A DNA stretch of 60,412 bases from a virus: IMG/VR virus record IMGVR_UViG_3300042945_001531, positions 1 to 60,412 of that record; one strand, 5' to 3'. The notes below the pieces were generated by a model. It worked only from the letters and a program-made list of their open reading frames with translations. It searched no databases and was not told where the DNA came from. The translations under genes and the position numbers were made by a program. Below, one piece after another: positions 16,436 to 44,976 of the stretch. Numbering within the stretch: the stretch's first letter is position 1; every line of letters starts with the position of its first letter.

Positions 16436-17173
16436 CTAATTAAAGTTCTTTTTTTCCCATGCCGTATGCCTGTATGCGTTTGGAAACAAAGGATCTCCTC
16501 GTTTCCATTGATCAAATAGATTTTTTCGATCATGATTTAGATCAACAACCATTTCCCAAGACTCTCTTTTAAATGGTATTACTTGTACTATTGGAGTACC
16601 TTGTTTTATTGTTCCCTCAAAATTTTTTTGTAAAAAGAATGAGTTAAAACCAGCAGTTAAAAAGTTATCAGTATCTACAACTGCTTCTATTGCCTTTATT
16701 GGAATATGTCCTTGATGCATAGGAGAGGTAAACAAAGTACTATAGCCTGGAGGAGTTTTAATCATCCACATTGGATTAATTCTAAATACATCTTCTAGAT
16801 ATATGCTAAAATCAACAGGGTAGTGAGATATATGTTCTGAAGAATGCCAATCAATAATTTTATGCTTAACTAAAGAAAACTGATTTGGTATAGTGCATTC
16901 TGTTTTACCATTTTTTGTATTAATGTATAAATCTACTGGCATTCTAAAAAAGTATCCCATTGACATTGAATCAAAAAATGGAATACATTTTTTTACTGTT
17001 AATTTTGAATTTCTATCTTCGTTGTCTTTGCTAAAAGACGAAGGTTGCTCTTTATACCATGAAGGTATTATCTTTGAGCAAGCAACTGGTTGTGGAAATA
17101 GATATTCAAAGTTTTTTACTGGCATAGGAAAAAACTTAATTAAATTTGCAGAAATTTTATACCTCGCATCCAA
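16436..17173 (-). CDS. DUF6065-like protein (1 of 3 in this block)
   Basis: A 245-residue protein sharing with the genes at 22732 and 21327 a C-terminal pattern F-x-G-T-I-K-x-G-T-P-I-V-Q-V-I-P-F-K-R. With the gene at 22732 it also shares IPSWYKE, GYFFRMPVDL and PPGYSTLFTSPM. The family resembles what I recall as DUF6065, often seen beside 2OG oxygenases in phages; that family name is from memory. The fold looks cupin-like (many short strands). The start is a TTG at 17173; an ATG at 17125 would remove the conserved N-terminal IKFFP segment. Confidence 0.6.
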   Translation of the reverse strand: MDARYKISANLIKFFPMPVKNFEYLFPQPVACSKIIPSWYKEQPSSFSKDNEDRNSKLTVKKCIPFFDSMSMGYFFRMPVDLYINTKNGKTECTIPNQFSLVKHKIIDWHSSEHISHYPVDFSIYLEDVFRINPMWMIKTPPGYSTLFTSPMHQGHIPIKAIEAVVDTDNFLTAGFNSFFLQKNFEGTIKQGTPIVQVIPFKRESWEMVVDLNHDRKNLFDQWKRGDPLFPNAYRHTAWEKKNFN

Positions 17174-17188
17174 CGATAACGTTTTATA

Positions 17189-17806
17189 TCAATGAATCCA
17201 GTGTTGTGGAACCATGATTTTTTCGCCACTCTTAACAAGATGTGCTGTATGATGATAAGGTGGAGATGGTGGAAAGACGATTATGCTTCCTGCTTTTGGC
17301 TTTACTGCAAAAGTATAATTTTTGTTTTTTTCTGCTTCTGCAAAATCAGCCTCTGGACTTGCTTGACTTAGCACCCCATCTGGAGAAGCAATGGTAAATG
17401 ATATTTCTCCGCCCTCGTAATCATCATTAAGATACATTACAAAAGAAACCTTTAATCTTTCGTCTCCTTCTTGTTGGTCAAAATGGGCGCCCATAAATGT
17501 TCCAGGCATGTACTTTTTAATAGGGTATTGTGGAAACAACTTTGGCTCTTCTTCAATGCCTTGAGCCTTAGCATAGTCTCTTGCAACATCATCAAATGCC
17601 TTTTGCAATGTTTTATATATGTAGTCATTTTCTACTGATTGAACAATTTGCTTGTCTGTTCCATAAACATAGTGCTGACCGCTGCAGGCCATCCATTCAC
17701 CCCAAGGATCCTTATTATCGTTCTCAATTGCGTCAACAAGTTTTTTTGGGTCTTCAATTACGTTAGTGTAATAGTAAACCTTTTCTTCAAGTATTTCTAT
17801 GTCCAT
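17189..17806 (-). CDS. 2-oxoglutarate/Fe(II) oxygenase, prolyl-hydroxylase-like (1)
   Basis: A 205-residue protein. The double-stranded beta-helix core shows the HFD iron motif (GAHFDQQ, near residue 107), then MYLNDDYEGGEISF, KPKAGSIIVFP and a distal His in YHHTAHLV. The usual 2OG-binding Arg after the distal His is replaced by Lys (SGEKIM). Family enzymes hydroxylate protein or small-molecule C-H bonds using 2-oxoglutarate and oxygen. Good ribosome site (TAGGAGA). It is in an operon with three more oxygenases upstream. The substrate is unknown. Confidence 0.85.
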   Translation of the reverse strand: MDIEILEEKVYYYTNVIEDPKKLVDAIENDNKDPWGEWMACSGQHYVYGTDKQIVQSVENDYIYKTLQKAFDDVARDYAKAQGIEEEPKLFPQYPIKKYMPGTFMGAHFDQQEGDERLKVSFVMYLNDDYEGGEISFTIASPDGVLSQASPEADFAEAEKNKNYTFAVKPKAGSIIVFPPSPPYHHTAHLVKSGEKIMVPQHWIH

Positions 17807-17814
17807 TTTTTCTC

Positions 17815-18477
17815 CTAGTATTTATTATTTTCATAAAAGCCTATGACTTTTATAAATCCTACAGTAACATATCTAATAGGTCCTTCTCCTACATGTCTAA
17901 CTCCGTGCTCAAACTCTTCATTACCTGGAAAAACCAAAAGTGTTCCTGGTTTTGGCCTCATGTCTGAATTTTCTTTGTTTTTAAAAAACAGGGTTCCATC
18001 CTTATAGTCATCATTTATATAAAGAATAGCAGCATACTTTATGGAAGGATCTGTATGCTGATCTGTATGGGATTTTAATTGAACGCCAGACTGCATTCGT
18101 TGCATTGTTCCAAATCCTGCAAGTTCTAGATTATTATCTGCCAGACTCAGTAGATCAGAAACCCTTTTATGTGCTGTCCTGCTAACTTTTTCAGTTCCAA
18201 TGTCTAGATTTTTATCGTCCCATCCTTGCGTAATTTCATATTTACCCTCAGCAACCAAATTCTCTACATCACTTCTTCCAAATTTTTCTAAACAAAACCT
18301 AGAAAGACTTTCCCTATATGCTTTTGACCACTCTTCTTCAGGAGTTCTATTGATAATATCCCATACCGAATCCAACTCTTCTTTTGACAAAAAGTTTTCT
18401 ACAGAAAGAACCTGCTCATGAAAAACTTCTGTCTTAAAGCCAGCGTCATCAAATTGTTTTTTTAAAAAAACTTCCAT
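17815..18477 (-). CDS. 2-oxoglutarate/Fe(II) oxygenase, prolyl-hydroxylase-like (2)
   Basis: A 220-residue protein with the HTD iron motif (KSHTDQH near residue 136), LYINDDYKDGTLFF, RPKPGTLLVFPG, and distal His and Arg in FEHGVRHVGEGPIRY. All catalytic positions of the 2OG-Fe(II) superfamily are present. It starts immediately after the previous gene's TAA (18478), with GAGGAG as ribosome site inside that gene, so it is translationally coupled. It shares only the core with its neighbours, so it is an old rather than recent duplicate. Confidence 0.85.
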   Translation of the reverse strand: MEVFLKKQFDDAGFKTEVFHEQVLSVENFLSKEELDSVWDIINRTPEEEWSKAYRESLSRFCLEKFGRSDVENLVAEGKYEITQGWDDKNLDIGTEKVSRTAHKRVSDLLSLADNNLELAGFGTMQRMQSGVQLKSHTDQHTDPSIKYAAILYINDDYKDGTLFFKNKENSDMRPKPGTLLVFPGNEEFEHGVRHVGEGPIRYVTVGFIKVIGFYENNKY

Positions 18478-19224
18478 TTATAACTCCTCAGCCCTATACT
18501 TATTTCCATTAGCATCAAGTTTCCAGCCTTGCTTTAGCAGTTCTTGCCACTCTGCTCTTTCAACCTCTTGATGTGCTCTGGTCTGCTTCATTTCTTCAGC
18601 CCATGCGTCTCTGACCTCTTGCGGATATGCATCTTCTTCACGATCATCCCAAAATGAACCTATTGTATATCTAACTCCCTTGGTTATAACTGTTACCTCG
18701 TGCATATTATTAAACCCACCGTCAAAAGCAGCAAGCATTCCTACTTTTGGCTTAATGCTAATATCTTGATCAGGGAACTGTAAAAGTCCTCCCTCAAAAT
18801 CATCATTCAAGTATAAAAATGCTGCATATCTACTTCTAGTAAAAGCCCCAGACTTTCCATGCTCATCTGTGTTATCTGAATGTTTTCTAGCATATGCTCC
18901 TGGCTCCCACTTTTGTGTATGATATCCAATTTGACAAATTACCTTTGGATCTAAATCATGTACGCTTGCAACAGCCTCTATTATTCCCTGCTTCATTTGT
19001 GAAAAAATATCAGAAGGCAAACCTTCAGAAATTACATGTTCATCATCATCTTGAGGAAGGACAGACGAATAAGATTCATAGAATGATATTGGCATCCATG
19101 TAATTGTTCCAACTTCAACATGCTTGTCTAAAACTTTTACAAGTTTTTCTGCAACTTCTGGAGATATAAAGTTTTCATAAACAACTATATCTTTTGTTAT
19201 CCTTGATTTGTTTTCTAGGTTCAT
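18478..19224 (-). CDS. 2-oxoglutarate/Fe(II) oxygenase, prolyl-hydroxylase-like (3)
   Basis: A 248-residue protein. The N-terminal 60 residues include YENFISPEVAEKLV, the entry helix typical of P4H-like proteins. The iron motif is HSD (RKHSDN near residue 115), then FLYLNDDFEGG, KPKVGMLAAFDGG, and distal His and Arg in NMHEVTVITKGVRY. A charged 45-residue C-terminal helix (EEMKQTRAHQEVERAEWQ) is an extra feature. The start overlaps the previous stop (ATGA). Confidence 0.85.
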   Translation of the reverse strand: MNLENKSRITKDIVVYENFISPEVAEKLVKVLDKHVEVGTITWMPISFYESYSSVLPQDDDEHVISEGLPSDIFSQMKQGIIEAVASVHDLDPKVICQIGYHTQKWEPGAYARKHSDNTDEHGKSGAFTRSRYAAFLYLNDDFEGGLLQFPDQDISIKPKVGMLAAFDGGFNNMHEVTVITKGVRYTIGSFWDDREEDAYPQEVRDAWAEEMKQTRAHQEVERAEWQELLKQGWKLDANGNKYRAEEL

Positions 19225-20084
19225 CTTACTCTAACTCCTTCTGGTATTTCAAACCTGTTTGGCAGCGTCTGCCAATATTCCTGATTTATGTTATCCTGCA
19301 TATCATACCATTCTTTTTTCCCAAACTCGGCCTCTTTTTTAAACCATTCTTCGCTTCCCAGACTATACTTTCTCCAATACATTCTTGCAAAATATTTTTC
19401 ATTTCCAGACGAAGGAAATACCCCATGTAGGTAAACACTGTCATTTTTTTTCAACACCTCTGGATGGCCCGAAGGAAATACCAGCCAGTCTCCAGCCTCT
19501 GGCTTATACTTTATCAACTCTCCTCCTACATAAAAATCAATCTCTCCCCCGTCATAATCATCATTAAAGTAAGCATTTGCAGTAATTGCAAACTTATATC
19601 CTGGACTTGGAATTGGCTCTCTAATGAAATCAGAATGATATGTCATTGACATTTTGTCTAATATATCTTTATGATAACTACATATTGATGGGCCATACAT
19701 TTTCCATAAAGGAAATCTTTCTCCGTCCCTGTTTTCAACAATTTCTTTACTATCAAAATTAAAATCGTTACCATATCTAAGAATGTAATCTTGAGTTACT
19801 TTATCAAAGCCGCCTGCTAACTCTAAAAGAAAATATTTTTGATCCTCTTGATTCTTAGTTTCAGTCTTTATTTCTTTTAAATTTTCATAACTCCACTCTT
19901 TGCCAAAAGTGTTTCCTGCTGGATAGTTTATGTATTTACCAAATTGTGCCCACTGTGACCATTCTCCAAATATTCTGTCCGTATTATCATTTGAAGATTC
20001 TTTTAAAATTTGATACATTTTTTCTACATTTTCAAAAATGTTTTTATAAACTAAAATGTTTGGATATATTTCTATAAAATTCAT
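19221..20084 (-). CDS. 2-oxoglutarate/Fe(II) oxygenase, prolyl-hydroxylase-like (4)
   Basis: At 287 residues this is the longest oxygenase of the set. It shows the HSD iron motif (MTYHSDF near residue 153), NAYFNDDYDGGEIDF, KPEAGDWLVFPSG, and distal His in YLHGVFPSSGNEKYFARMYW. The N-terminal 130 residues are an additional Trp/Tyr-rich domain that may bind the substrate. It overlaps the upstream gene by TAATG, forming a continuous coupled operon from 20842 to 17189. Confidence 0.85.
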   Translation of the reverse strand: MNFIEIYPNILVYKNIFENVEKMYQILKESSNDNTDRIFGEWSQWAQFGKYINYPAGNTFGKEWSYENLKEIKTETKNQEDQKYFLLELAGGFDKVTQDYILRYGNDFNFDSKEIVENRDGERFPLWKMYGPSICSYHKDILDKMSMTYHSDFIREPIPSPGYKFAITANAYFNDDYDGGEIDFYVGGELIKYKPEAGDWLVFPSGHPEVLKKNDSVYLHGVFPSSGNEKYFARMYWRKYSLGSEEWFKKEAEFGKKEWYDMQDNINQEYWQTLPNRFEIPEGVRVR

Positions 20085-20842
20085 TAGTTATTCCTAATTC
20101 CATTATCTGGATCCCAGGCCCTTATTGACTCGTCATTAGGAAAAATTCTATGATAATCTTTAGTAAAGTCTGGTTTTATTTCTCCAGTATGCTCAAGAAT
20201 CTCCCAAAAAAATGGACAGGTATACCTAATACCATTTTTAATTTTTGTTACCCCATGCACATAGTTCATGTCCCCTGGGAAAAAATATGCAGATCCACGC
20301 TTTGGCTTAAACTGTATTCCTTGATTTGGAAAATACAATTCTCCACCTTCATAGTCATCGTTAATATAAAATAAACTTGCTATGTCATAGTTTGGGAAAT
20401 CGTTTGGTTTTCCAGCATCTGGTCCAGAGTGTAACTCTTTATCTGCATGCGGTAATTGATACTGTCCTGGATTCCACTTTACAATTGTTTGTCCAGTTGG
20501 CCTAACTTTTACATTAAAAAATTCTTCAATAACTGGCTGTAGTTTGTTAAACAATCCTATAATTACTGGAACAATATTTGGATCATTTTGATTTAATGAT
20601 GGAGCACTTGCTACTCGATCTTTCCAATAATCTGCATCATAAATAATTACTCCGTTTTCATTCTTATGGCTTTGTGTTATATCCCAAATTGTTATGCTTC
20701 TTGCTGCTTTATCTAAGAAATCGACCTCTTCCTGGGTCATAAAATTTTCTAGTTCAATGATGTTTTCTGGACCACTTCCAAAAAACCCAGAGGGTGTGCT
20801 GGAGGGCTTTCTTACTACTGTAACTGCATCTTGTGGATTCAT
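20084..20842 (-). CDS. 2-oxoglutarate/Fe(II) oxygenase, prolyl-hydroxylase-like (5)
   Basis: A 252-residue protein with the HAD iron motif (QLPHADKE near residue 125), LFYINDDYEGGELYFP, KPKRGSAYFFPG, and distal His and Arg in YVHGVTKIKNGIRYTC. It is a complete P4H-like core with an N-terminal IIELENFMTQEEVDFL entry helix. It is the first gene of the 20842-17189 operon and is expressed from a leaderless promoter (TGATATAAT with a six-base gap). Confidence 0.88.
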   Translation of the reverse strand: MNPQDAVTVVRKPSSTPSGFFGSGPENIIELENFMTQEEVDFLDKAARSITIWDITQSHKNENGVIIYDADYWKDRVASAPSLNQNDPNIVPVIIGLFNKLQPVIEEFFNVKVRPTGQTIVKWNPGQYQLPHADKELHSGPDAGKPNDFPNYDIASLFYINDDYEGGELYFPNQGIQFKPKRGSAYFFPGDMNYVHGVTKIKNGIRYTCPFFWEILEHTGEIKPDFTKDYHRIFPNDESIRAWDPDNGIRNN

Positions 20843-20848
20843 GTTTGA

Positions 20849-20857
20849 ATTATATCA
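20849..20857 (-). promoter_or_regulatory. Extended -10 promoter (TGATATAAT), leaderless, for the oxygenase operon
   Basis: TGATATAAT on the minus strand ends six bases before the ATG at 20842. No ribosome site is present. It drives at least four coupled oxygenase genes. Confidence 0.6.
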
Positions 20858-20870
20858 TAGGACTTTTATC

Positions 20871-21326
20871 CTACAATTTTCCCTCTACTTCTAATTTTTT
20901 CAAAAACCTTTCAACATTAAACCTCCAGTTATCTTTTCCAAATGATGTAGCAATTTTTAAGCAAAGGTCTTCGTAGTCTTTTTTGTCTAACTTATCCTTT
21001 ATTTGATAAAGGGCATCCGTGGTATCAATGTAGTTTTGTCTTACAAAAGATGGATCTCCAGCATGATTTCTTTTTAATACTTTTGTTGTTACTTTTCCGC
21101 AGGGCTCATACAAAGAAACAGTTAGATAGTCTTTTGCAAAACCTGCATCCTGATACATTCTATAGCCATCTACAGCATCTTCTATATTTTGAAAAGATAT
21201 AATAGATCTTACTGGGTCTTCTCCATCTCTTGCCACTGTAATCATATAGTGACCAATTTTCCTGTCTTTGGCATCCTGCAAATATTTATTTATTATGTCA
21301 GAGTGTGATGGATTTAATTCATTCAT
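20871..21326 (-). CDS. Hypothetical protein in the oxygenase cluster
   Basis: A 151-residue protein that I do not recognise. The first half is mixed alpha/beta (YMITVARDGEDPVRSIISF, then SLYEPCGKV); the second half is helical and charged. No catalytic motif is evident. The start immediately follows the TAA of the DUF6065-like gene, so it is cotranslated with it and probably serves the same process. Confidence 0.5.
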   Translation of the reverse strand: MNELNPSHSDIINKYLQDAKDRKIGHYMITVARDGEDPVRSIISFQNIEDAVDGYRMYQDAGFAKDYLTVSLYEPCGKVTTKVLKRNHAGDPSFVRQNYIDTTDALYQIKDKLDKKDYEDLCLKIATSFGKDNWRFNVERFLKKLEVEGKL

Positions 21327-22040
21327 TTATTTAGTGCTCCTATTATCTTTTACATTTAGCCTAAGAGTTTTTACTTCATGAGACCCGAGCGAATTTCCGT
21401 TTTCATCTACGGCATCTCGATACCAATCAGTCCACCCACCAGTAGAATTAATTTTTTGTGCAGCCTCTCCATAAGAAATGTTGGCATTCATTCTTGACTT
21501 ATCTTCATCTTTATATTCAAAAACCTCTATCGTGCTATTATTTAAATTTGTTAATGATATAGGAATAATTGTTGCCAACGGAGTGCCAGATTTTATAACT
21601 ATATTTTGATTAGCCTTCTTTGCTTTAATTGCTAAAGGCAATGGATTGTCATAGAATGAAGTTGTAATTAAGTTTGACATAGTTTCAAAATCTTCATTAA
21701 AATAGTTAACTGGATTTATAGTAAAAATGCTAACATCAGAATCTGTTCTAAATATAAGTCCAGTATTTAAACTGATTGAAGACTGCCCTCTGCCTGCATA
21801 AGATCCTTGTGGACTAGAGATTATATTTATGTGTTTATCGGTTTGGTCATTTATTCCGTCCCAAATAAACTCAATATCTTCTTCACAAAAAATATTCCAG
21901 CCTATTACATTTGCCTGAGTAACAGGAAAACACCTATATGCATGCTTTTCTGATGTAACATCCATCCAATCTCTTTTTATTGACATTGGGGATATTGAAA
22001 ATGGTGCCCCATGCATTTTTTCGACTGAAATATTAAACAT
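21327..22040 (-). CDS. DUF6065-like protein (2 of 3)
   Basis: A 237-residue protein with the segment RCFPVTQANVIGWNIF near residue 37, then FIWDGIND and a region IVIKSGTPLATIIPIS. This last matches the GTP-x-x-Q-x-I-P-F segment of the genes at 16436 and 22732. It resembles the family I recall as DUF6065. It makes a TAATG overlap with the neighbouring oxygenase gene. Function is unknown; the repeated pairing with 2OG oxygenases suggests a partner or a metal-free cupin relative. Confidence 0.6.
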   Translation of the reverse strand: MFNISVEKMHGAPFSISPMSIKRDWMDVTSEKHAYRCFPVTQANVIGWNIFCEEDIEFIWDGINDQTDKHINIISSPQGSYAGRGQSSISLNTGLIFRTDSDVSIFTINPVNYFNEDFETMSNLITTSFYDNPLPLAIKAKKANQNIVIKSGTPLATIIPISLTNLNNSTIEVFEYKDEDKSRMNANISYGEAAQKINSTGGWTDWYRDAVDENGNSLGSHEVKTLRLNVKDNRSTK

Positions 22041-22723
22041 TATTCGTTATCCCATTTTGGGTCATACATATCTGGTGTATGATACTTTTTACTGTAATCA
22101 AGCATTGTTACAATAGAATACTTTGTTCCAGAATGAACTGGCATTGCTTGATGTGGATACATAAAGTTAGAAGGAAATATATACAGATCTCCAGCCTTTG
22201 GCTTAATGTTTAGGCCCTGAAGTCTAAAGTATAACTCCCCACCATCATAATCATCATTTACATATGCAACCAAAGAAACCGTGCAATTATATGAGTATCC
22301 GTGATCGTGATGTTCTTTAAAGTGTTGTCCTGGACCATACTTAATAAAGTTAAAAGCCTCCCAATATTTAAGAGGCATTATATTATAGTCTCTACGATAA
22401 TCTTCTACTGCTGCTGACTGGGCGTCATAAACATCTTGCCAAAGTGCTTGAAGTTTTAATGAATCCTCGCTCTTGTCTGCCTCTATATCTGTTTTCTTAA
22501 ACTTAAAATCAACACAATCTCTATAATCTGGCATTAATTGCTGATATCCAACATATGCAGGCATCCAGTGATATCTTTTTCCTTCTGCAGACAATTCTCC
22601 ATATCCAGCAACAGATCCTAGTATATTTTCAAGTCTATTAATAACATCAATTTCTTTTTTTATAACATTTCTATAGCATGTAATACCATTGCCAAGCACT
22701 TCTTTTTCTGTCCAAGTTTGCAT
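22040..22723 (-). CDS. 2-oxoglutarate/Fe(II) oxygenase, prolyl-hydroxylase-like (6)
   Basis: The start is set at the second of two adjacent ATGs (22723), five bases after AGGAG; the first is too close. The 227-residue enzyme has the HHD iron motif (FKEHHDHG), VAYVNDDYDGGELYF, KPKAGDLYIFP, distal His in YPHQAMPVHSGTKYS, with Lys at the usual Arg site. It closely resembles the gene at 23499 (DCVDFKFK/DCVDFKYK, YNCTVS, YWEAFNF/YYEAFNF), so these two are recent paralogs separated by a DUF6065-like gene. Confidence 0.87.
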   Translation of the reverse strand: MQTWTEKEVLGNGITCYRNVIKKEIDVINRLENILGSVAGYGELSAEGKRYHWMPAYVGYQQLMPDYRDCVDFKFKKTDIEADKSEDSLKLQALWQDVYDAQSAAVEDYRRDYNIMPLKYWEAFNFIKYGPGQHFKEHHDHGYSYNCTVSLVAYVNDDYDGGELYFRLQGLNIKPKAGDLYIFPSNFMYPHQAMPVHSGTKYSIVTMLDYSKKYHTPDMYDPKWDNE

Positions 22724-22731
22724 CATTTCTC

Positions 22732-23499
22732 CTATTTGTATTCTCTTCTTGACCAAACACTTTTTATATATACCCCGCCATCTGGCTGGCGATAGGTTTT
22801 TGCATTATCCATTATTTTACCATAGATCTTGGAAGAATCGCTTATCTCTATTTCATGGTCCCAGTTATCTCTTTTAAAAGGAAGAATTTGCAGATACGGA
22901 GTCCCTGCTGGGATAGTTCCTTCCCATCCTTCTACAATAAAAAATGGAAAACTTCCAAGCAGGTGGACTTTGTCACTATCTACAATTCCAGTTGTATTTA
23001 GAAATGGTAAATCAAATCTATTCATTGGAGTCATAAACAAAGCACTATATCCTTCTGGTAACTCCAACCCCCAGTCAGCAGACCAGGCAAAATGGTTAGA
23101 ATAATACCCCTTTGGATGCTCAAACTGTGGCATTGGTGGTCTTTGTGTACAAAAATCTTGACACTTTGGATCCTCTACTTTAACACTTATAATTCCTTGA
23201 GCATTTTTAAAAAATGTTAAATCACATGGAGTTCTAAAAACATATCCCGTTGCAAAAGCATCCATAATTGCTGGACATGCTTTCCATGTTGGAACCTTGC
23301 CAAAGTCGTCTGTTGTTCCTTCTTTTGGAAAGGGACAAACCTCTTTTGGCGCCTTATAATATTCACCATTAGGCATTTTAGCAAACCTGTCTGCATCCTT
23401 GTACCAATCTGGCATTTCTTTTTGTGTTGGGACTGGAACAGACTTGCTTTCTTTGTTTAGCCAAGGTCTGTAAGAAACAAATTTGGCAATAAGCGACAC
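22732..23499 (-). CDS. DUF6065-like protein (3 of 3)
   Basis: A 255-residue protein starting at GTG, overlapping the previous stop (TAGTG). It shares with the gene at 16436 the patterns MPDWYKD/IPSWYKE, GYVFRTPCDL/GYFFRMPVDL, PEGYSALFMTPMNR and the C-terminal IPAGTPYLQILPFKRDNW. The protein is beta-rich with several conserved aromatic residues and no HxD iron motif. It lies between two paralogous oxygenases with overlapping reading frames, so coexpression is assured. The role is unknown. Confidence 0.6.
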   Translation of the reverse strand: MSLIAKFVSYRPWLNKESKSVPVPTQKEMPDWYKDADRFAKMPNGEYYKAPKEVCPFPKEGTTDDFGKVPTWKACPAIMDAFATGYVFRTPCDLTFFKNAQGIISVKVEDPKCQDFCTQRPPMPQFEHPKGYYSNHFAWSADWGLELPEGYSALFMTPMNRFDLPFLNTTGIVDSDKVHLLGSFPFFIVEGWEGTIPAGTPYLQILPFKRDNWDHEIEISDSSKIYGKIMDNAKTYRQPDGGVYIKSVWSRREYK

Positions 23500-24215
23500 T
23501 ACTTATGTCCTAGTTCATTAATGTCTGTCATAACGACAACGCAATATTTTGCTCCCGATTTCATTGGTAAAGATGCATGTTCGTATATGTAATTAGATGG
23601 ACAAAGAAGAATATCTCCAACCTTTGGTGTATGTGTATATCCATCAAGTCTTGGGAACTTAATCTCTCCGCCTTCGTAGTCTTCATTTATGTATATTACC
23701 GCAGAAACCGTACAATTATACATTGGACCATGGTCTGCATGAATATTGAAGTGCTTTCCTTCACCCTCATACTTTACAAAATTAAATGCCTCATAATATA
23801 TAACGTGAATTCCCCAATATTTTGCATAATCATCAACACATATTTTTAGTTTTTGATATATTTCTTCATGAAGGTCAAGAAGTTCAGCATTATGTTCATC
23901 TCTTGGCCCCAAGTTTTCTTGCTTATATTTAAAGTCTACACAGTCTCTTGCTTTTTTGATTGGCACATCTGAATTTGTAACCTTTGCGTCTGACCAGGTA
24001 TATTTTCCATTACCGCCTAAGTTTGACTCAAGCATATTTATATATCTTTCCGAATCTTCTTTTGAAAATGTATTCCTGTATAAATTTATTCCTAGTGCTG
24101 GATTTTCAACTATAAAGCCATTGCTCATAGTTCTTGTTGGATATCTATTTAATGCTGTTTCTGATCTATCTTTTGTAAACCATGGATTTTGATTTTCATC
24201 ATAAACTTCGTACAT
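23499..24215 (-). CDS. 2-oxoglutarate/Fe(II) oxygenase, prolyl-hydroxylase-like (7)
   Basis: A 238-residue protein with the HAD iron motif (FNIHADHG near residue 159), VIYINEDYEGGEIKFP, TPKVGDILLCPS, and distal His in YEHASLPMKSGAKYC, with Lys replacing the 2OG-binding Arg. It shares the DCVDFKYK and YNCTVS segments with gene 22040. It is the first gene of the operon running 24215-20871, driven by a TGGTATACT box 36 bases upstream. Confidence 0.87.
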   Translation of the reverse strand: MYEVYDENQNPWFTKDRSETALNRYPTRTMSNGFIVENPALGINLYRNTFSKEDSERYINMLESNLGGNGKYTWSDAKVTNSDVPIKKARDCVDFKYKQENLGPRDEHNAELLDLHEEIYQKLKICVDDYAKYWGIHVIYYEAFNFVKYEGEGKHFNIHADHGPMYNCTVSAVIYINEDYEGGEIKFPRLDGYTHTPKVGDILLCPSNYIYEHASLPMKSGAKYCVVVMTDINELGHK

Positions 24216-24251
24216 ATTAGTACCACTTTCTTTTCAATAAGCCTAGATAAT

Positions 24252-24287
24252 AGTATACCACACCATTTCTGATGTGGTATATCTTTT
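24252..24287 (-). promoter_or_regulatory. Promoter box TGGTATACT overlapping an inverted repeat
   Basis: TGGTATACT (24252-24260, minus strand) precedes the gene at 24215. It forms the end of a palindrome TATACCACA...TGTGGTATA spanning roughly 24254-24281. The hairpin could end the Phe-Pro repeat gene transcript or be an operator. There is no T-tract on the minus strand. Confidence 0.45.
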
Positions 24288-24302
24288 ATTTATTATTTTA
24301 TA

Positions 24303-25190
24303 TTATGTCGCTCTTGGACCGAACTTGTTTCCACCGAATGATGGGAAGAATGGGAAGAACGGTGGGAAGAATGGTGGGAAGAATGGGAAGAATGGGAAGA
24401 ACGGTGGGAAGAATGGGAAGAATGGGAAGAATGGGAAGAACGGTGGGAAGAATGGGAAGAATGGGAAGAACGGTGGGAAGAATGGGAAGAATGGGAAGAA
24501 TGGGAAGAACGGTGGGAAGAATGGGAAGAATGGTGGGAAGAATGGGGGGAAGAATGGGAAAAACGGTGGGAAAAATGGCGGGAAGAACGGAGCAATAGTA
24601 GTTACGCTACCAGAAGACGCAGATGCAGCAGAATTTCCATTAGCGTTAGTTGCATAAACAGTATATGTTTGAGAAGTATTTGCTTCTTGAGAAACTACCA
24701 CTGATGTTGAAGCAGTTGAATTAGTTTTTCCATCTGAAGATGTCCATGTATATCCAGTAATCGCCTTACCACCATTTGCTGGGGCGGTCCAAGAAACCGT
24801 ATCTTGATCTACTCCCGCTGTTGCAGTTGGAGCACTTGGTGTTGCTGGAACAGTTGTTGCTGTCACAGAAGACGATGCTGATGAAGCAGCAGAAGTTCCT
24901 GCGGCATTTGTTGCAGTCATTGTAAAGGTATAGGAAGTATTAGATGCTAAACCTGTTACTCTAACTGGAGATGATGCGCCAGTTCCAGTAAATCCTCCAG
25001 GGGAAGATGTAACTGTAAAAGATGTTGCTGCTGGAGAAAGCGCAGGTAATGTAAAAGATACATCAACTGCTCCATCATTAAATGCACGACCTGTTCCTAC
25101 ATCTGTCGCACCAGTAATAGTTGGTGTTAATGGCTCCAAAAAGTCATTTGATGCTTGGGACTTTCTACCTGTCTTCTTGCCTGCTGCCAT
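24303..25190 (-). CDS. Fibronectin type III protein with a long Phe-Phe-Pro repeat tail
   Basis: A 295-residue protein. Residues 20-115 and 117-200 are two Ig/FN3-like beta domains (NTSYTFTMTATNAAGTS and SQTYTVYATNANGNS are typical G-strand phrases). From about residue 202 to 282 the chain is built only of FFP and FFPP units, about 80 residues, ending SFGGNKFGPRAT. I know no named family for the tail. FN3 domains are common on phage tails and bind surfaces; the tail would be very hydrophobic and proline-rigid. It is the neighbour of seven prolyl-hydroxylase-like enzymes, which makes it a candidate substrate. Ribosome site TAGGAGA. Confidence 0.7.
   Translation of the reverse strand: MAAGKKTGRKSQASNDFLEPLTPTITGATDVGTGRAFNDGAVDVSFTLPALSPAATSFTVTSSPGGFTGTGASSPVRVTGLASNTSYTFTMTATNAAGTSAASSASSSVTATTVPATPSAPTATAGVDQDTVSWTAPANGGKAITGYTWTSSDGKTNSTASTSVVVSQEANTSQTYTVYATNANGNSAASASSGSVTTIAPFFPPFFPPFFPFFPPFFPPFFPFFPPFFPFFPFFPFFPPFFPFFPFFPPFFPFFPFFPFFPPFFPFFPFFPPFFPPFFPFFPSFGGNKFGPRAT
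24342..24592. repeat. DNA repeat encoding the Phe-Phe-Pro tail
   Basis: A tandem array of 9- and 12-base units (plus-strand GGGAAGAAT, GGGAAGAAC and a GGT insertion) covering about 250 bases. On the minus strand it encodes FFP and FFPP. The irregular mixture of 9- and 12-base steps suggests growth and loss by slippage or unequal recombination, so length probably varies between related phages. Confidence 0.85.
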
Positions 25191-25220: not shown

Positions 25221-26996
25221 CTACGCTGTTAGATCGCCGTAAACGACCCAAGTGTTTGCTGCTCTCTTTAGGAGGGTAGCAGAAGACCATCTTGTTCTTA
25301 ATTTCAAACCAGGTGTTGCGTTTACTGTAACTGAACCAGAAACTGGAGCAATTGTAACCTGTCCTGTGTTTGTTTGTAGAATATCAATAGTTGTTCCTAC
25401 TGGATAGTTTACTGTTGAATCCAATGGAATTGTGAGAGTTGTTGCTGATGTAGAATCTACCTCAATCAACGAGTCTCTATGTGTTAATTGTGAAAGAGCA
25501 TATGATGCTGTCTTTTGTACAATTGGAGTTCTTGATGGAACGCCTTCCTTTGTTTGTGTACCGTCTGAGAACACAACACCTGCAGATGGAGTTACTGTAG
25601 TTGCTTCAAGAGCGCCTACTGCAAGTGCATCAAGAGATCCTTCTCCAAATGCTACAACTGTTGAAGGCTCTGTTGCTACATCCTTAAATAACTTCCACTT
25701 AGCATCAGATACGTCTCTTACGAGGCCTGAGTGCTTTGCTGTACCGTCGTTGTAAGCAACTACTAGACCAAGGTCGACTGTGTTTGCTGCATTCTGGTGA
25801 GCAAGTTGAACCATGTTATCTTCAATTGTGATAGATGTTGCTGATGCTGAGAAGTTGGTTCCGTTAACTGTAAAGTCTCCGTCTACTACAAGGTTTCCGT
25901 CAACTTCTACGCTACCTGTAAATACTGCGCCTGCAAGAGAAGCCTTTGCATCAAGTGCTGTTTGTGTAGCAGTTGATACTGGCTTATTTGCATCTGAAGT
26001 ATTATCAACATTTGCGAGGCCTACTGAAGACTTTGTAAGTGCTGCTACTGCTGTTGCTATCTTTGTATCTGCTGCTGCTCCTGCTGCTGTTATTGCGTCT
26101 GCTTCTGCATTATCCGCATATTCTTTAGTTGCAAGAAGTGCTGTATCAGCAATACCGTGTACGTTAGTTGTATCGTCGTTGTGTGTACTTACTGCATCGT
26201 CTGCATAAGTCTTTGTAGCAATTGTGTTATCAATATCAAATCTTTCGTCTACTGCGTTCCAGTCAATACCAGTTCCTGCAAGTGCTTGCTGATCTACGGT
26301 TGCTGCAGTAATTGCATTTGCTATGTCTGTTTGTGTTGCAAGAACAGAAGTATCAAGAATTCCGTGAACATTTTCTGTTAGATTTTCGTGTGCTGTTAAT
26401 GCTCCAGCAGCATTGTTTGCTGCTGTCTGAACATCAGTTTGTGTAGCAAGAACGGATGTGTCAGCAATTCCATGAACCAGAGTTGTATCTGAAGCGTGTG
26501 TAGACAATGCTGAAGCAGCATCATCTGCTGCACCCTGTACGTCTGTAAGTGTTGCAAGAACAGAAGTATCTGCAATTCCATGAACCAGAGTTGTATCTGA
26601 AGCATGTGTAGATAGTGCTGAAGCAGCATCGCTTGCTGCTGCATTAACATCTGACTTCAGTGCAAGGGCTGCTGTATCTGCAATTCCATGAATCATTGTT
26701 GAGTCATTTATGTGATTTGTAAGATTTTGTCCAACTGTTGCAAAAAATTGTGGATCGCCATTAATTGCGCCTGCTAGTTCATTTAGGGTATTAAGAAGAT
26801 CTGGAGCACCGTCAACAATTGCTGCGAGTTCGGCTGCATTGGCAAAGTACTGTAGTGCAGACCAGGCTGAGGAGCCGTTACCCATTTTAAATTTATTTGT
26901 ATCAGTTTCAAAACCGATTTCACCTGCTGCGAGAACTGGGTTAGCAGCCGTCCATTGTGCTGCAGTTCCTCTGCGCTGTTGCATTCTTGTTGCCAT
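25221..26996 (-). CDS. Tail fibre-like protein with repeated HGIADT modules
   Basis: A 591-residue protein. The N-terminus (TRMQQRRGTAAQWTAANPVL, then GEIGFETDTNKFKMGNG) is the virion-attachment domain shared by many phage tail proteins. Residues 90-330 hold imperfect copies of a module with THASDTTLVHGIADTSVLAT spaced by about 36 residues, probably a trimeric coiled stalk. The C-terminus (TRWSSATLLKRAANTWVVYGD) is a beta domain also seen at the Pro-Thr-rich protein ([17 protein letters not shown]). It probably acts in host recognition. AAGGAG ribosome site; TGTTATAAT promoter upstream. Confidence 0.75.
   Translation of the reverse strand: MATRMQQRRGTAAQWTAANPVLAAGEIGFETDTNKFKMGNGSSAWSALQYFANAAELAAIVDGAPDLLNTLNELAGAINGDPQFFATVGQNLTNHINDSTMIHGIADTAALALKSDVNAAASDAASALSTHASDTTLVHGIADTSVLATLTDVQGAADDAASALSTHASDTTLVHGIADTSVLATQTDVQTAANNAAGALTAHENLTENVHGILDTSVLATQTDIANAITAATVDQQALAGTGIDWNAVDERFDIDNTIATKTYADDAVSTHNDDTTNVHGIADTALLATKEYADNAEADAITAAGAAADTKIATAVAALTKSSVGLANVDNTSDANKPVSTATQTALDAKASLAGAVFTGSVEVDGNLVVDGDFTVNGTNFSASATSITIEDNMVQLAHQNAANTVDLGLVVAYNDGTAKHSGLVRDVSDAKWKLFKDVATEPSTVVAFGEGSLDALAVGALEATTVTPSAGVVFSDGTQTKEGVPSRTPIVQKTASYALSQLTHRDSLIEVDSTSATTLTIPLDSTVNYPVGTTIDILQTNTGQVTIAPVSGSVTVNATPGLKLRTRWSSATLLKRAANTWVVYGDLTA
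26430..26650. repeat. Tandem 108-base repeat within the fibre gene
   Basis: Two nearly identical 108-base units encode the 36-residue HGIADT modules. The near-identity at DNA level, including third positions, points to recent duplication and a module that can change copy number. Confidence 0.7.
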
Positions 26997-32482: not shown

Positions 32483-32488
32483 ATTATA
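32483..32488 (-). promoter_or_regulatory. Possible TATAAT box, leaderless, for the GT11 gene
   Basis: TATAAT ends six bases before the ATG at 32476 and includes the epimerase TAA. There is no TG extension. The gene may instead rely on coupling. Confidence 0.35.
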
Positions 32489-34112: not shown

Positions 34113-34349
34113 TTACCACTTTCCTAATGGACAGGTTGCTGCCTGTAATTTAGTCTTAACAGCCATAAAGCAGCCACACTTTTTGCACTGTTTTGTTAAT
34201 TTGATCAATTCTGGACATGACTGACAAATAGAGTATCTATTTACGGCTATTTCAGAAGAGGCCCACTCAGTTGTTGGATTAACCAAATCCCAAGGTCTGG
34301 TTTCTCCTAAATTTTCTTTATATTTTTGCCAGGCAGATTTTTCATTCAT
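34113..34349 (-). CDS. Small Cys-rich zinc-binding-like protein
   Basis: A 78-residue protein with Cys pairs ICQSCPE, then QCKKCGC and a final TCPLGKW: a C-x2-C plus C-x2-C-x-C arrangement suited to zinc or an Fe-S cluster. Similar small proteins occur beside oxygenase genes in other aquatic phages (from memory). Its ribosome site AGGGTGA lies within the end of the upstream gene. Confidence 0.6.
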   Translation of the reverse strand: MNEKSAWQKYKENLGETRPWDLVNPTTEWASSEIAVNRYSICQSCPELIKLTKQCKKCGCFMAVKTKLQAATCPLGKW

Positions 34350-34605: not shown

Positions 34606-37122
34606 TTAGTAAGCGCAACTAGATCCAGTCCAGAATCCACCACTATTTACACAGGATGTACAGTTACTGCATGCCACCGATGTTGCTGTATATTCTGGGC
34701 AGGCAGCACATTGATTTGCTGGTGTCGGAGTTGGGCTAGGTGTAGGCGTTGGAGTTGGGGTAGGCGTTGGCGTTGGGGTTGGAGTTGGAGTTGGGGTAGG
34801 AGTTGGAGTTGGGGTAGGAGTAGGTGTTGGGGTTGGTGATGGCGTTGGTGTAAAAGTTGGGAAGAACGGGAAGGACGGTGGGAAGAACGGGAAGGACGGG
34901 AAGAATGGTGGTGCAGGTGTAGGTGTCGGAGTTGTCCATGGTGTTGTCGAGCATTCTCCAAATGTTGTTGAATAATAATATCCGCAAGCCTGGCATTGAG
35001 ACTGGTTATAGGCCCATGCATTGTCTGGGCTACATGTTGGTGTCGGAGTCGGTGTCGGAGTTGGTGTCGGAGTTGGTGTTGGTGTTGGTGTTGGTGTTGG
35101 TGTTGGTGTTGGGGTACAAGGAACACTCTGGAAGTATTCTCCACAACTTCCATTTGCATAAACACCAATTCTACTTCCATTAGAACATGGAGAATCCCAA
35201 GCAATAAATGTTCCAGAAGGTGGGCACGTTGAAGTTGGAGTAGGTGTTGGAGTTGGTGTAGGGGTAGGTGTAGGGGTAGGTGTTGGAGTTGGTGTTGTCC
35301 ATGGTATTGTTGAACATTCACCAAATGTTGTTGAGTAGTAATATCCGCAAGCCTGGCATTGAGACTGGTTATATAAATATGCATTGTCTGGTACGCAACT
35401 AGAGGTTGGTGTTGGGGTAGGTGTTGGGGTAGGTGTTGAGCATCCAAGGCCTATATAAAACTTAATAGAACTTGTTGATCCATCAGAACACTTATACCAT
35501 GCTTCTTGATAATTACTACATCCTGAGCAAGATCCATCTGGACAGGATCCACTATAAACTCCACCTAGAGTTTGTCCATATTGAGATCCACAGGAAACTG
35601 TTGTAGTTGGAGTAGGAGTTGTTGGGGTTGGTGTTGGTGTTGGAGTTGTCGGTGTTGGAGTTGGGGTAGATCCACAATTTGCTGCCGATACTGAAGGCGT
35701 GTTTGAATTTCCTGGAGCACAGTTCCAACCACTTCCAACCTCACCTAAAGCGGTGTGGTACTGTAGTGCTTGTGAGCAAGTTCTTGTGTCGTCAAAATTA
35801 GGTCCCATAACTGTTCCTGGATCATATCCTGCTCCAACATTAGCACAATATGTATACCAAACTCCAGAAGTTCCTGGAGTAACACATGGAGTTGTTCCAG
35901 CACCGCCACTACCTCCACAAGAACTTACGTTAGTTGCAAGACAGTTTCCAAATCCAAGGAATGTTCCAGTCCCTGGTGCTGCTTCAACACAAACTTGGTA
36001 TGAGCCATCGGAGCATGTTTTTCTTGTTCCTTGGAAAATTCCTTCATAAGAGTCCTCACCATTACATGTTGGAATTGTTACTGTATATGCTTCACATGGT
36101 CCACAGGTGACTGTTTCTGTTGGTGTAGGAGTTGTTGGGGTTGGAGTTGGTGTTGTTGGGGTTGGAGTAGGAGTTGTTGGGGTTGGTGTTGTTGGGGTTG
36201 GAGTAGGAGTTGTTGGGGTTGGAGTAGGCGTTGGGGTTGGAGTAGGCGTTGGGGTTGGTGTTGGTGTTGGTGTTGGAGTTGGAGTAGGCGTTGGTGTTGG
36301 TGTTGGAGTTGGAGTTGGAGTTGTAGGCGTTGCCACACCTTCATAGATATCTCCGTATAAAACCCACGAGTCGGTATCTACTTTTATTAATGTTGCTTTG
36401 CCGTATTCTGCATCAATCCATTTTTGATTATTTTTACTATTTACCATTACTCCGCTTGCTGGGCTAAATAATGTTCTTCCATAATTAAACTGTATAAAAT
36501 TATATTGATATCCTATAGGAATTTGTACAGAGGTATTGTTTGGAACAGTTACAGTCACTGTTACTGGTGGATTTGGGTCACCAGGAATTGGAGATATAAC
36601 TGGTCCTGAATATGAAAGCAATATAGTTTTTGCAACATCACCAAGTTCTAATGTAAAATTATTATCTTTTGTTATTACTGTATTTATATTTGCAATTCTT
36701 GGCTCAAGATCAAACTGTTCATCAACAGAATTCCAATCAATACCATTTCCTGCAAGGGCTGGGTATCCTCCAGTAGCACCACTTATTGCATTAGTTATTG
36801 CTGTATTAACAAATGATTGCGTTGCTAAATCTGCTGTATTTGATATACCGTGGACATCTGTGGTATCTGAGTTGTGTGCTGAAATTGCTGCATTTCTATT
36901 TACTATTTCTGCAGCATCTGCATCTACAAGATTTTGAAGGTGTTTTGCAATTGACGGGGTAACAAGATTATTGGGGTTTGTATTTGCCCCATCATAAACA
37001 TATGATCCATAGTGATATAGTCTTAAGGCTGCCTGAATGTCGGCTGCGTCTGAAAGACCTGGAATTTTAGTATTGAAGAGTCCACTACCGTTGACGGTAT
37101 TATCGATATTCTCTTCTGCCAC
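34606..37122 (-). CDS. Pro-Thr-rich, Cys-module tail protein
   Basis: An 838-residue protein. Residues 1-260 are fibre-like: an [11 protein letters not shown] module matching the 25221 gene, [19 protein letters not shown], and a beta domain ending [10 protein letters not shown]. From about residue 265 long TPTPTP spacers alternate with Cys-rich modules. One module, [19 protein letters not shown], occurs twice almost identically. An island of FFP repeats ([16 protein letters not shown]) near residue 755 matches the tail at 24303. The start is GTG with GAGAGGTGA. The Pro-Thr spacers are typical O-glycosylation or prolyl-hydroxylation substrates; that role is inference. Confidence 0.75.
34730..36330. 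repeat. Interrupted hexanucleotide repeats encoding Thr-Pro
   Basis: Long stretches of plus-strand GGTGTT, GGAGTT, GGGGTA and GGCGTT units encode Thr-Pro dipeptides on the minus strand. They lie mainly at 34730-34855, 35037-35110, 35235-35295 and 36118-36330. Variation at third positions shows that the Thr-Pro protein sequence, not the DNA, is conserved. Confidence 0.8.
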
Positions 37123-38226: not shown

Positions 38227-38235
38227 ATTATACCA
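38227..38235 (-). promoter_or_regulatory. Extended -10 promoter (TGGTATAAT), leaderless
   Basis: TGGTATAAT on the minus strand ends six bases before the ATG at 38220. Confidence 0.6.
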
Positions 38236-40938: not shown

Positions 40939-40944
40939 ACTGCG

Positions 40945-41861: not shown

Positions 41862-41865
41862 TATG

Positions 41866-42129: not shown

Positions 42130-42163
42130 AACTGAAATATTATAAGGGGTATATTTAATAAAA

Positions 42164-43608: not shown

Positions 43609-43620
43609 AAAGGTATGCTA

Positions 43621-43806: not shown

Positions 43807-44002
43807 GTATTATTACAAGCCAGTTCTTAGTGTTATTGAAGAAATGTATTTAAAGAATGCTGGAACAGACTTCAAACCATCTATCAATATCGAAGAAAGT
43901 GTTCGTATTGTAGTTGAAGCAGACTCACAAGAGGCTGCAGACAACTCAAGAATTGGCTACGTAGATATTCGTATGTGGGAACTAGATAAGGTTGAAGACT
44001 AA
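43799..44002 (+). CDS. Small hypothetical protein
   Basis: A 67-residue protein starting at TTG, the only in-frame start, eight bases before the stop of the previous gene. It begins PKYYYKPVLSVIEEM and has an alpha/beta pattern (VRIVVEADSQEAADNS). It is the last gene of the methyltransferase operon and ends four bases into the convergent minus-strand gene. Confidence 0.5.
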   Translation: MPKYYYKPVLSVIEEMYLKNAGTDFKPSINIEESVRIVVEADSQEAADNSRIGYVDIRMWELDKVED

Positions 44003-44163
44003 GATCCTTTACGGATGAATTGTGCTATATCGTGTGATGCGTTATGGTACATACCGTGAAATTTTTGCTCAACTTGTTTTGCTATAACAGATCTTAGTTT
44101 TTGTTCAATCTGAAATAATAGAATGGCCTGTACCTGCTCTGGCGTTAATTGCTGCTCATCCAT
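43999..44163 (-). CDS. Small Gln-rich helical protein
   Basis: A 54-residue protein beginning MDEQQLTPEQVQAILLFQ and ending near FIRKGS. It is highly helical and overlaps the stop of the 64-residue gene by eight bases (ATGGATGA), a layout of real translational coupling. It is the last gene of the sulfotransferase operon. No function recognised. Confidence 0.5.
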   Translation of the reverse strand: MDEQQLTPEQVQAILLFQIEQKLRSVIAKQVEQKFHGMYHNASHDIAQFIRKGS

Positions 44164-44350
44164 TTTTGCAACTACAATCCTGACAGCAGGTTTCTGAAAA
44201 TATTTTTGCAGCCAAGTTTGGATATTCTGGTCTTCCTAAATCTTCCCAAAATTTTTCTCTGCCCATAGCATCTGTTTCTGGAATTGGTTTTGACTCTAGC
44301 GATAAGTTGTCATCCCATGCATTTTCTAAATTTTCTAAAAACCCCATCAT
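44156..44350 (-). CDS. Small Cys-rich protein of the sulfotransferase operon
   Basis: A 64-residue protein with a C-terminal TCCQDCSCKNG cluster and an N-terminal amphipathic segment (FLENLENAWDD). The cluster may bind a metal. Its ATG overlaps the sulfotransferase TGA. No family was recognised. Confidence 0.5.
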   Translation of the reverse strand: MMGFLENLENAWDDNLSLESKPIPETDAMGREKFWEDLGRPEYPNLAAKIFSETCCQDCSCKNG

Positions 44351-44976
44351 CTTGATTCCTCTTTATAGTATCTTTCATATAGTTTGTCTATTTTTGATTG
44401 TATGCTATCTAATTCATTTTTATAATTAGATAGAAACATCTGCTTTATATCCTCATGTTCTTTTGCCAAAGGACGAGGAAAGTTGCTTAGATATGTATTT
44501 CTTGATCCATAATGTTGATCACAAACATCTAATATTTCTTCCGCAGTAAGTTTTTGCTTAATCGAATATTGAGGATATTTTTTTACTATTGTCTCAACTA
44601 CCCTTAGTGGGTTTTTTGTAAATTCATGAAATGGTGCAATGAACAATTCTTCGTGCTTAACCAGGTAATCTATATACTCTGTGTATCTTTCAATAAGTTC
44701 TTTTGGGTCCCCCGTTCTTTCGTGCTTTCTTCCCATAATCTTATCTTGTCTTGGAAGGTTATTTGCCCATTGGTAATCTCTATATAGTTTTGCAGAAATT
44801 ATGGAAGGCAGAACGTCTCTAACTGGAATAATATATATAGAATCTTTTTCTCTTTCTTCAAGAGCAGAGACAAGGTGATATTTTTCAGCAACTGCATCAG
44901 ACTCAGTAGTTAGGCCTATGGCAAATGCAAGGAATGTGTTTCCTGATCTTTCTAGCCCATCTATATGTATTGTCAT
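44347..44976 (-). CDS. Sulfotransferase-like protein
   Basis: A 209-residue protein. GLERSGNTFLAFAIG near residue 7 is the PAPS-binding P-loop type (R-S-G-N-T-x-L). IIPVRDVLPSIIS near residue 49 matches the 3'-phosphate binding stretch of sulfotransferases. Such enzymes move sulfate from PAPS to sugars or proteins. In this phage, sugars or hydroxylated tail proteins are possible targets (inference). It is transcribed with a 33-residue Cys-rich peptide from a leaderless promoter. Confidence 0.75.
   Translation of the reverse strand: MTIHIDGLERSGNTFLAFAIGLTTESDAVAEKYHLVSALEEREKDSIYIIPVRDVLPSIISAKLYRDYQWANNLPRQDKIMGRKHERTGDPKELIERYTEYIDYLVKHEELFIAPFHEFTKNPLRVVETIVKKYPQYSIKQKLTAEEILDVCDQHYGSRNTYLSNFPRPLAKEHEDIKQMFLSNYKNELDSIQSKIDKLYERYYKEESR

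Follow-up and report, generated by a model that had tools for sequence, protein, structure and literature searches.

Why would a phage carry a long run of prolyl-hydroxylase-type oxygenases among its tail genes? The question is raised by a virus record in IMG/VR (IMGVR_UViG_3300042945_001531), which we analyzed over its whole length of 60,412 bases (38% G+C) and refer to as the window. Between a tail-fibre gene with an Mtd_N domain and a ribonucleotide reductase (RNR) gene, it encodes, at 16436-25190, a tail-region protein with fn3 domains and a C-terminal tract of phenylalanine and proline, followed by a cassette of seven 2-oxoglutarate (2OG)- and Fe(II)-dependent oxygenases, among which sit three DUF6065/phrog_7084 proteins that an earlier note on this DNA had overlooked. 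That note had proposed that the oxygenases modify proline-rich fibres as one joint system with several glycosylation-type enzymes. Our results tie the cassette genetically to the proline-rich tail-region protein and dissolve the single system. On the basis of sequence and structural modelling, we consider hydroxylation of the Phe-Pro tract by the cassette probable, at about 0.62.

The Phe-Pro tract gene

The tract occupies 83 residues in the last third of the fn3 protein (Table 1). The FFP repeats that the earlier note had read there are far above expectation: the protein contains 24, whereas 2,000 shuffled versions of it average 1.6 and never exceed 6. Across 150 distinct tracts, phenylalanine is encoded by TTC (5532) and TTT (397), and proline by CCA (2970), CCG (1287), CCT (428) and CCC (53); third codon positions thus vary within tracts, the pattern expected where conservation acts on the protein sequence. 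A variant tract, (HFPP)n in place of (FFPP)n, was seen at L439/L423, still with 11 cassette-type oxygenases.

Many of the tract proteins have a Cys-rich tail or a Hint-like domain at the C-terminus, and some tracts may therefore be processed further; self-cleavage of the tip is possible in the Hint-bearing proteins, judging by their C-termini. A Hint/intein-like C-terminus ending in HN(K) or similar was observed in the FFP proteins of L130, L168, L184, L158 and L204 and in the PFG protein of L490 (6417-7778); the Pfam family Intein_splicing gave 6.4e-8 in L184, below its cut-off, and no match in L490.

Tract class and oxygenase content in related phages

Related loci were collected from IMG/VR through two anchors that flank the tract locus, the major capsid protein and the RNR, so that sampling was not selected on the outcome. 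The RNR set held the best 80 of at least 598 loci, while the capsid set of 80 loci gave 27 long records, 20 of which had enough upstream DNA to be used. From 100 anchored loci we kept 67 that had the fibre anchor, either the RNR or the P1239 anchor, and a complete stretch from the Mtd_N fibre gene to the RNR or the next tail gene; the other 33 were omitted because they were truncated or the fibre match was missing. The 67 loci include records reached via both anchors, and dereplication by the repeat protein left 56. Tract classes were assigned at six or more motifs in the dereplicated count and later at five or more, when the PFG pattern was also widened and the FTPY class added. A narrower FFP pattern in an earlier screen had overlooked a real FFPP tract in the record of L342.

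The gene behind the fibre usually bears a low-complexity, mostly Phe-rich tract that can be sorted into classes. All 24 loci of the Phe-Pro class carry 3–11 PF13640-type oxygenases and two or three DUF6065 genes, and at least three oxygenases occur in 0 of the 43 loci of all other classes (21/21 against 0/35 after dereplication). The co-occurrence check that the earlier note had suggested thus found cassette and Phe-Pro tract both present or both absent in 67 of 67 loci. Oxygenases without a proline-rich fibre, which that note regarded as contrary to its idea, were found as single PF13640 genes, and in none of the 67 loci as a cassette. Five of the omitted loci still show a tract and all fit: L441, L450, L484 and L495 combine a Phe-Pro tract with the cassette, and L502 has a PFG tract without it.

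Other tract classes have other neighbours. None of the 24 loci of the PFG class (for example FGFSPFGV) has three or more oxygenases, and 23 of them encode one to three oxygenase-like proteins that we name OX5. Alignment of OX5 reveals invariant HxH, distal H and R columns, which suggests that it may be an oxygenase; the label PF13759 was tried for these proteins and rejected, as they had no Pfam match and reached 5% probability in a profile comparison with the window's oxygenases. The ten FGA loci have neither the cassette nor OX5 and one DUF6065 gene each, the four FSH loci (for example GFSHYAGF) two DUF6065 genes and one OX5, and the two FTPY loci DUF6065 only; three of the 67 loci (L434, L521, L522) fall outside every tract class.

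Searches that started from either partner gave a similar picture. Almost every locus fetched with DUF6065 (the best 80 of 371 in IMG/VR) that extends far enough has a Phe-Pro gene immediately ahead of the cassette. In reverse, the DNA pattern for FFPFFPFFP alone returned 116 new viral loci, 102 of them with a real repeat open reading frame (ORF), and 81 of these 102 have an oxygenase within the fetched stretch. Thirteen of the remaining 21 have PF13640 elsewhere in the record, and the eight without are contigs of 5.0–26.9 kb; a PF13640 oxygenase is therefore encoded somewhere in the record for 94 of the 102 loci (some share a contig). Looking for a bacterial source of the repeat, we found at least 116 FFP-like stretches in genomes, and among those listed none of the 10 loci with an ORF of at least five [FY][FY]P motifs had an oxygenase.

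Exchange of tract and cassette between phages

In a phylogeny of the conserved tail gene adjacent to the RNR (65 loci), the Phe-Pro state changes 11 times, and each of the 11 independent pairs shows a joint switch of tract and cassette (sign test, p 0.001), although the long branches of L434 and L439 are unsure. For PFG with OX5 there are only 5 supported independent pairs (p 0.25), and for FGA with DUF6065 alone 8 pairs, of which about 7 agree (median p 0.016). In sister phages DNA homology resumes just before the RNR at 82–93% identity, as in L494 (FGA) and L458 (Phe-Pro), which are about 90% identical from that point, and the fn3 part of the tract gene can be aligned at 71–76%. Since the fn3 part aligns across classes, the breakpoints lie inside the tract gene, and this homology pattern indicates that the exchanged unit is the tract plus its enzymes.

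The main rival to hydroxylation of the tract is that the pairing reflects linkage only, adjacent tract and oxygenases being swapped as one block between conserved flanks while the enzymes act elsewhere. Replacement of the block as a unit, with homology returning just before the RNR in sisters, is what this explanation would predict. We nevertheless judge it rather improbable: no mixed combination occurs in the 67 loci despite 11 independent exchanges, and the tract follows the enzymes even though the breakpoints fall within the tract gene. Moreover, among the records tested, Phe-Pro genes distant from the cassette (in G003, G077 and other records) were met only in cassette-bearing ones; the set is small and was partly selected for FFP.

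Whole records were searched for FFP(P)FFP. It was absent from all 17 phages lacking the cassette at the locus (29–116 kb), 16 of which show a non-FFP tract gene there (L511 ends before the tract gene), whereas 11 of 12 cassette-bearing records have it. Four of these 12 (L108, L173, L046, L163) had been selected for FFP; among the other eight, seven match and L493, with a short tract, does not. A second FFP site at least 6 kb from the first is present in at least six of the 12 (G026, G022, G074, G027, G070, G005), though in three of these with just one or two matches. G077 (114 kb) has FFP sites separated by 48 kb, of which one adjoins a cassette at a second locus and the other lies in a 1,561-residue protein, and in G010 the cassette and two Phe-Pro genes lie at a second locus and the fibre–RNR locus has no tract gene. 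At L182 (record G003), which lies outside the 67 loci and would be a local exception, a Phe-Pro gene stands directly before the RNR with no adjoining cassette; local pairing is therefore not absolute. About 7 kb upstream in this record, a second locus holds a full cassette together with a Phe-Pro gene of its own. That tracts away from a cassette occur only in cassette-bearing genomes favours function over linkage, albeit in a small sample. Second-locus cassettes, upstream of fibre genes and directly behind a Phe-Pro gene, were observed in L525 (6914-13846), L527 (3072-12026) and L529 (6681-11366).

Family and fold of the oxygenases

The eight oxygenases described in the earlier note are complete, intact ORFs on the minus strand, starting at 17189, 17815, 18478, 19221, 20084, 22040, 23499 and 33500. 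Seven pass the PF13640 cut-off; that at 19221 has no Pfam match and was recognized through phrog_61 only, with the same motif present. The HxD, distal His and Arg/Lys residues are intact in all eight. Among 95 diverse relatives the H, D and H positions do not vary, and the final position is K (48) or R (47). Mutual identity among the window's enzymes is 20–40%, pointing to old paralogues or separate acquisitions. At the right edge of the window, well away from the tail genes, a ninth oxygenase of PF13640 type (59973-60410) is cut off by the end of the sequence; a JmjC_2/cupin-like protein lies there too (59092-60410 for the region).

A profile of 69 cassette-type sequences ranks prolyl 4- and 3-hydroxylases first. 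The AlphaFold model of the enzyme at 22040, the one of the eight that was modelled, has a mean predicted local distance difference test score (pLDDT) of 91.6 and adopts the double-stranded beta-helix fold of prolyl 4-hydroxylases (P4H), superposing over 175 residues on an algal P4H solved with (Ser-Pro)5 (VIA Z 19.9, root-mean-square deviation (rmsd) 2.1). It also lies near HIF-type hydroxylases and a Pseudomonas P4H solved with EF-Tu, its top match in Foldseek. The prolyl-hydroxylase type named earlier is thus borne out by the fold for the modelled enzyme and by the iron/2OG motif for all eight; a P4H fold is not proof of substrate. In cultured phages, relatives of this enzyme were found in 373 records, mostly cyanophages, the best among the matches listed being 28% identical.

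An auxiliary metabolic or host-directed role would have the enzymes alter the 2OG or nitrogen state of the host, or hydroxylate host proteins such as EF-Tu, the partner in the best Foldseek match. Genes of this kind are numerous in cyanophages, for which a 2OG/nitrogen model has been put forward (PMC3037559, PMC9602691). Such a role would leave unexplained the pairing with one class of tail repeat and the presence of seven diverged copies, and we regard it as distinctly unlikely.

The DUF6065 proteins

For the DUF6065-like protein at 22732, the model (pLDDT 87.1) shows similarity to dUTPases (best VIA Z 10.5, rmsd 3.0, 126 of 255 residues); Foldseek returned nothing at E<=0.001 (best 3.5e-3), and the profile match to dUTPase has an E of 0.029. 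Relatives of this protein occur in 49 cultured-virus records, all haloarchaeal by name or host, and no relative of the DUF6065 protein at 21327 was found in cultured phage records. In Halorubrum phage HF2 (L419, 7857-8741) a DUF6065 relative lies near the RNR on the opposite strand, with no annotated oxygenase in the region shown. A recurring cluster of DUF6065, oxygenases and another protein, which we take to be a NodU-type carbamoyltransferase, was seen without a Phe-Pro tract in L421 (396-5440) and L427 (11782-17000).

That TET/JBP-like oxygenases, dUTPase-like helpers and the neighbouring RNR make a modified base is very unlikely: the DUF6065 model does resemble a dUTPase, an RNR adjoins the cassette as well as lying near the HF2 relative, and two oxygenases have weak PF12851 similarity, but PF13640 far outscores PF12851, whose cut-off of 34.9 bits is not reached (19.7 bits for 20084, 12.8 for 33500, no listed match for the other six), the nearest PDB profiles are prolyl hydroxylases with Tet-like chains only at about 1e-4, and the RNR is kept in every tract class, oxygenase-free ones included.

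A possible modification system of the tail

If the cassette does hydroxylate the Phe-Pro tract, a tail-region protein would be made with N-terminal fn3 domains and the C-terminal tract, and some seven oxygenases of prolyl-hydroxylase fold would hydroxylate that tract, most likely at its prolines. The genes, their intact catalytic motifs, the fold of the modelled enzyme and the co-exchange are shown, whereas the tract as substrate and a place for its protein on the virion are inferred; because of the prolyl-hydroxylase fold, proline would be a likelier target than phenylalanine, which is itself possible. Different enzymes might, at a guess, serve different positions, steps or contexts, and the DUF6065 proteins, with a predicted fold that may be dUTPase-like, could assist, for instance as factors that bind or present the tract. 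As the exchangeable half of its gene, the tract would move between phages with its enzymes; other phages have other aromatic tracts (FGA, PFG, FSH, FTPY) and other neighbour genes in the same place. The benefit may lie in the solubility or adhesion of a very hydrophobic tip.

More tentatively, and at less than even odds, we suggest a tail-tip code: related phages would select one of several aromatic repeat tracts (FFP, PFG, FGA, FSH, FTPY), and each tract would be passed on in a single cassette with a matched set of modifying genes. The FFP version would be hyper-hydroxylated by about seven dedicated oxygenases, possibly on phenylalanine too, giving a new polymer-like adhesive or anti-adhesive tip whose chemistry switches by recombination.

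Several points weigh against hydroxylation of the tract. Activity, modified residue and presence on the virion are predictions here, and seven enzymes for one simple repeat exceed any obvious need. DUF6065 also occurs without these oxygenases, beside FGA tracts and in haloarchaeal viruses, and PF13640 genes are found in phages without Phe-Pro tracts (0–7 per record, in runs of at most three). The oxygenase family need not imply proline, since in L422 (2049-4692) two PF13640-type oxygenases follow a protein with long Ile-Asn-Thr repeats and a Hint-like C-terminus (a motif reading), a third type of repeat beside oxygenases and one that lacks a Pro-rich tract. Tract and cassette are usually adjacent, so a one-block swap could mimic their matching, and the RNR tree is poorly resolved, with only two supported pairs (both agree, p 0.5). 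L122, finally, has other tail genes and no cassette behind its FFP gene, on a contig that begins at this gene.

Table 1. Genes of the Phe-Pro module, its boundaries and the Thr-Pro module in the window.
Feature	Position	Strand	Evidence and remarks
Mtd_N fibre gene, upstream boundary of the exchangeable module	25221..26996	-	PF18454 1.7e-14; locus anchor
fn3 tail-region protein with C-terminal (FFP/FFPP)n tract, proposed substrate	24303..25190	-	two fn3 stretches, PF00041 5e-9; upstream of cassette in relatives
Pure Phe/Pro tract, residues 201-283	24342..24590	-	48 F + 35 P, no other residue
2OG-Fe(II) oxygenase 1	23499..24215	-	PF13640 7.3e-9; complete motif
DUF6065-like (phrog_7084) protein	22732..23499	-	phrog_7084 4.9e-33; model resembling dUTPase
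2OG-Fe(II) oxygenase 2 (modelled)	22040..22756	-	PF13640 1.3e-15; pLDDT 91.6
DUF6065 protein	21327..22040	-	PF19541 1.3e-27
151-aa protein, family unassigned	20871..21326	-	no Pfam/PHROG match; ORF of 151-159 aa at the same position in many relatives, not in all cassettes
2OG-Fe(II) oxygenase 3	20084..20842	-	PF13640 3.6e-8
2OG-Fe(II) oxygenase 4	19221..20084	-	phrog_61 2.5e-7; no Pfam match; complete motif
2OG-Fe(II) oxygenase 5	18478..19224	-	PF13640 2.4e-9
2OG-Fe(II) oxygenase 6	17815..18477	-	PF13640 8.2e-11
2OG-Fe(II) oxygenase 7	17189..17806	-	PF13640 9.5e-11
Third DUF6065-like protein	16436..17173	-	phrog_7084 1.1e-40; PF19541 5e-5, below cut-off
Adenosylcobalamin-dependent ribonucleotide reductase, downstream boundary	14308..16398	-	TIGR02505 7e-100, 335 bits against cut-off 340; swap breakpoints just before RNR
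Thr-Pro repeat protein, one short Phe-Pro stretch at residue 738	34606..37122	-	97 TP
DUF6171-like small Cys protein	34113..34349	-	PF19668 7.5e-5, below cut-off; kept beside 33500-type oxygenase
2OG-Fe(II) oxygenase 8	33500..34111	-	PF13640 2.6e-18; TP-rich protein just upstream in relatives
GDP-mannose 3,5-epimerase, optional companion of the Thr-Pro module	32484..33512	-	PDB 2c59 E 2e-89, residues 10-342 of 342
Glycosyltransferase, GT11 only in the earlier note's reading	31529..32476	-	phrog_2644 3.5e-9

A second module and the glycosylation-type genes

The Thr-Pro spacers reported for the protein at 34606 were confirmed by count (Table 1), and it is with this protein that the eighth oxygenase belongs. 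Among 33 matches to the oxygenase at 33500, 24 have at least 500 bases upstream, and in 21 of these, with the window's own included and L026 counted twice, a TP-rich protein is encoded within 1.5 kb upstream, usually with the DUF6171 protein in between; the three others are L075 and L424/L441, the latter from one record and inside a Phe-Pro cassette. The trio was also found in one FGA-class phage (L442). In place of a single joint pathway there are thus at least two modules, the oxygenase at 33500 grouping with the Thr-Pro protein and DUF6171 and not with the cassette.

The glycosylation-type genes were of mixed standing. Near full-length homology upheld the GDP-mannose 3,5-epimerase, and PF04488 (1.7e-12) the GT32-like enzyme. 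The gene at 31529 is a glycosyltransferase by its PHROG match; for its placement in GT11 there was no family match (no Pfam to E 0.1, no PDB to E 1). For the supposed sulfotransferase at 44347 there was no Pfam, NCBIfam or PHROG match and only weak, unrelated PDB matches. Of two proteins called collagen-like, that at 38228 is above the Pfam cut-off and that at 39689 below it; both genes lie at least 13 kb from the Phe-Pro tract.

A joint pathway with the epimerase, GT11-like, GT32-like and sulfotransferase genes was rejected as a unit. Epimerase and GT11-like genes follow the Thr-Pro module in L008-L018, neither does so in L020-L025, and the epimerase alone is present in L026 and L202; the epimerase is absent from six Thr-Pro loci (L020-L025) and present in phages with PFG, FGA and FTPY tracts (L431, L459, L474). 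Relatives of the GT32-like gene occur in 5, and of the sulfotransferase-like gene in 2, of the loci examined. Hydroxyproline can be linked to O-glycans. With the epimerase and GT11-like genes in only some relatives, extensin-like hydroxylation and glycosylation of Thr-Pro repeats is possible in some phages, with no fixed pathway; glycosylation of the Phe-Pro tract is an unsupported guess. PF03567 sulfotransferase-like genes were also seen just behind the tract gene in PFG and Phe-Pro phages, namely L490 (7796-8494; 3.8e-4, below cut-off), L496 (2858-4382; E 1.3e-6) and L429.

The phage of the window

Megablast of the window against 50,697 phage records gave zero matches. Identical copies of the proteins at 33500 and 22732 are encoded on one contig of 115,665 bases, so that the genome of the window is probably larger than 60,412 bases. 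The major capsid protein is closest to those of Streptomyces phages (41–42%), and on this sequence similarity an actinobacterial host may be guessed at.

Relation to known systems

A close parallel is with P4H of the collagen, extensin and HIF types (algal P4H, PHD2, Bacillus anthracis P4H) and with vCPH of chlorella viruses, which share the fold, the HxD...H...K/R centre and a repetitive proline-rich partner. The cassette differs in comprising seven diverged paralogues in one gene run, and its partner repeat is Phe-Pro rather than Gly-X-Pro or Ser-Pro and so far a putative substrate; the Gly-X-Pro pairing of the collagen–P4H type was not found, the paired tract holding only Phe and Pro. Variable tail-fibre and receptor-binding modules likewise occupy a locus behind the fibre gene, with a C-terminal part exchanged between related phages, but the Phe-Pro tract arrives with its own enzyme set. 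The haloarchaeal tailed viruses HF1 and HF2 encode DUF6065/phrog_7084 homologues (26–31% identity among the matches listed), near the RNR in HF2. They differ from the window in having these on the other strand from the RNR and in one place per record, with no annotated oxygenase in the region shown.

Cyanophages are another parallel: S-SCSM1 carries 24 copies of 2OG-Fe(II) oxygenases (PMC9602691), and here, as in T4-like cyanophages (PMC3037559), an aquatic phage encodes numerous PF13640-type proteins with little identity to one another. In the accessible parts of both papers, however, they are treated as metabolic genes with an undefined target, and no paired repeat protein is mentioned. Such oxygenases are frequent in aquatic phages, their targets being left open or ascribed to host metabolism in those same parts (PMC3037559, PMC9602691), and the genetic pairing with one repeat protein supplies a concrete, testable candidate substrate for an oxygenase set. 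If hydroxylation of the tract is borne out, phages would tailor virion proteins by multi-enzyme hydroxylation and trade that chemistry as a modular unit, with consequences for receptor binding, host range and the stability of virions; a source of peptide hydroxylases with simple repeat substrates would be a further gain. Our search of titles and abstract openings in the openly accessible literature found no description of such a pairing of repeat and hydroxylases. The enzymes belong to known kinds; what appears new is the tract, how many enzymes accompany it and that they are exchanged jointly. We regard the Phe-Pro module as a variation on the theme of a prolyl hydroxylase with its repeat protein.

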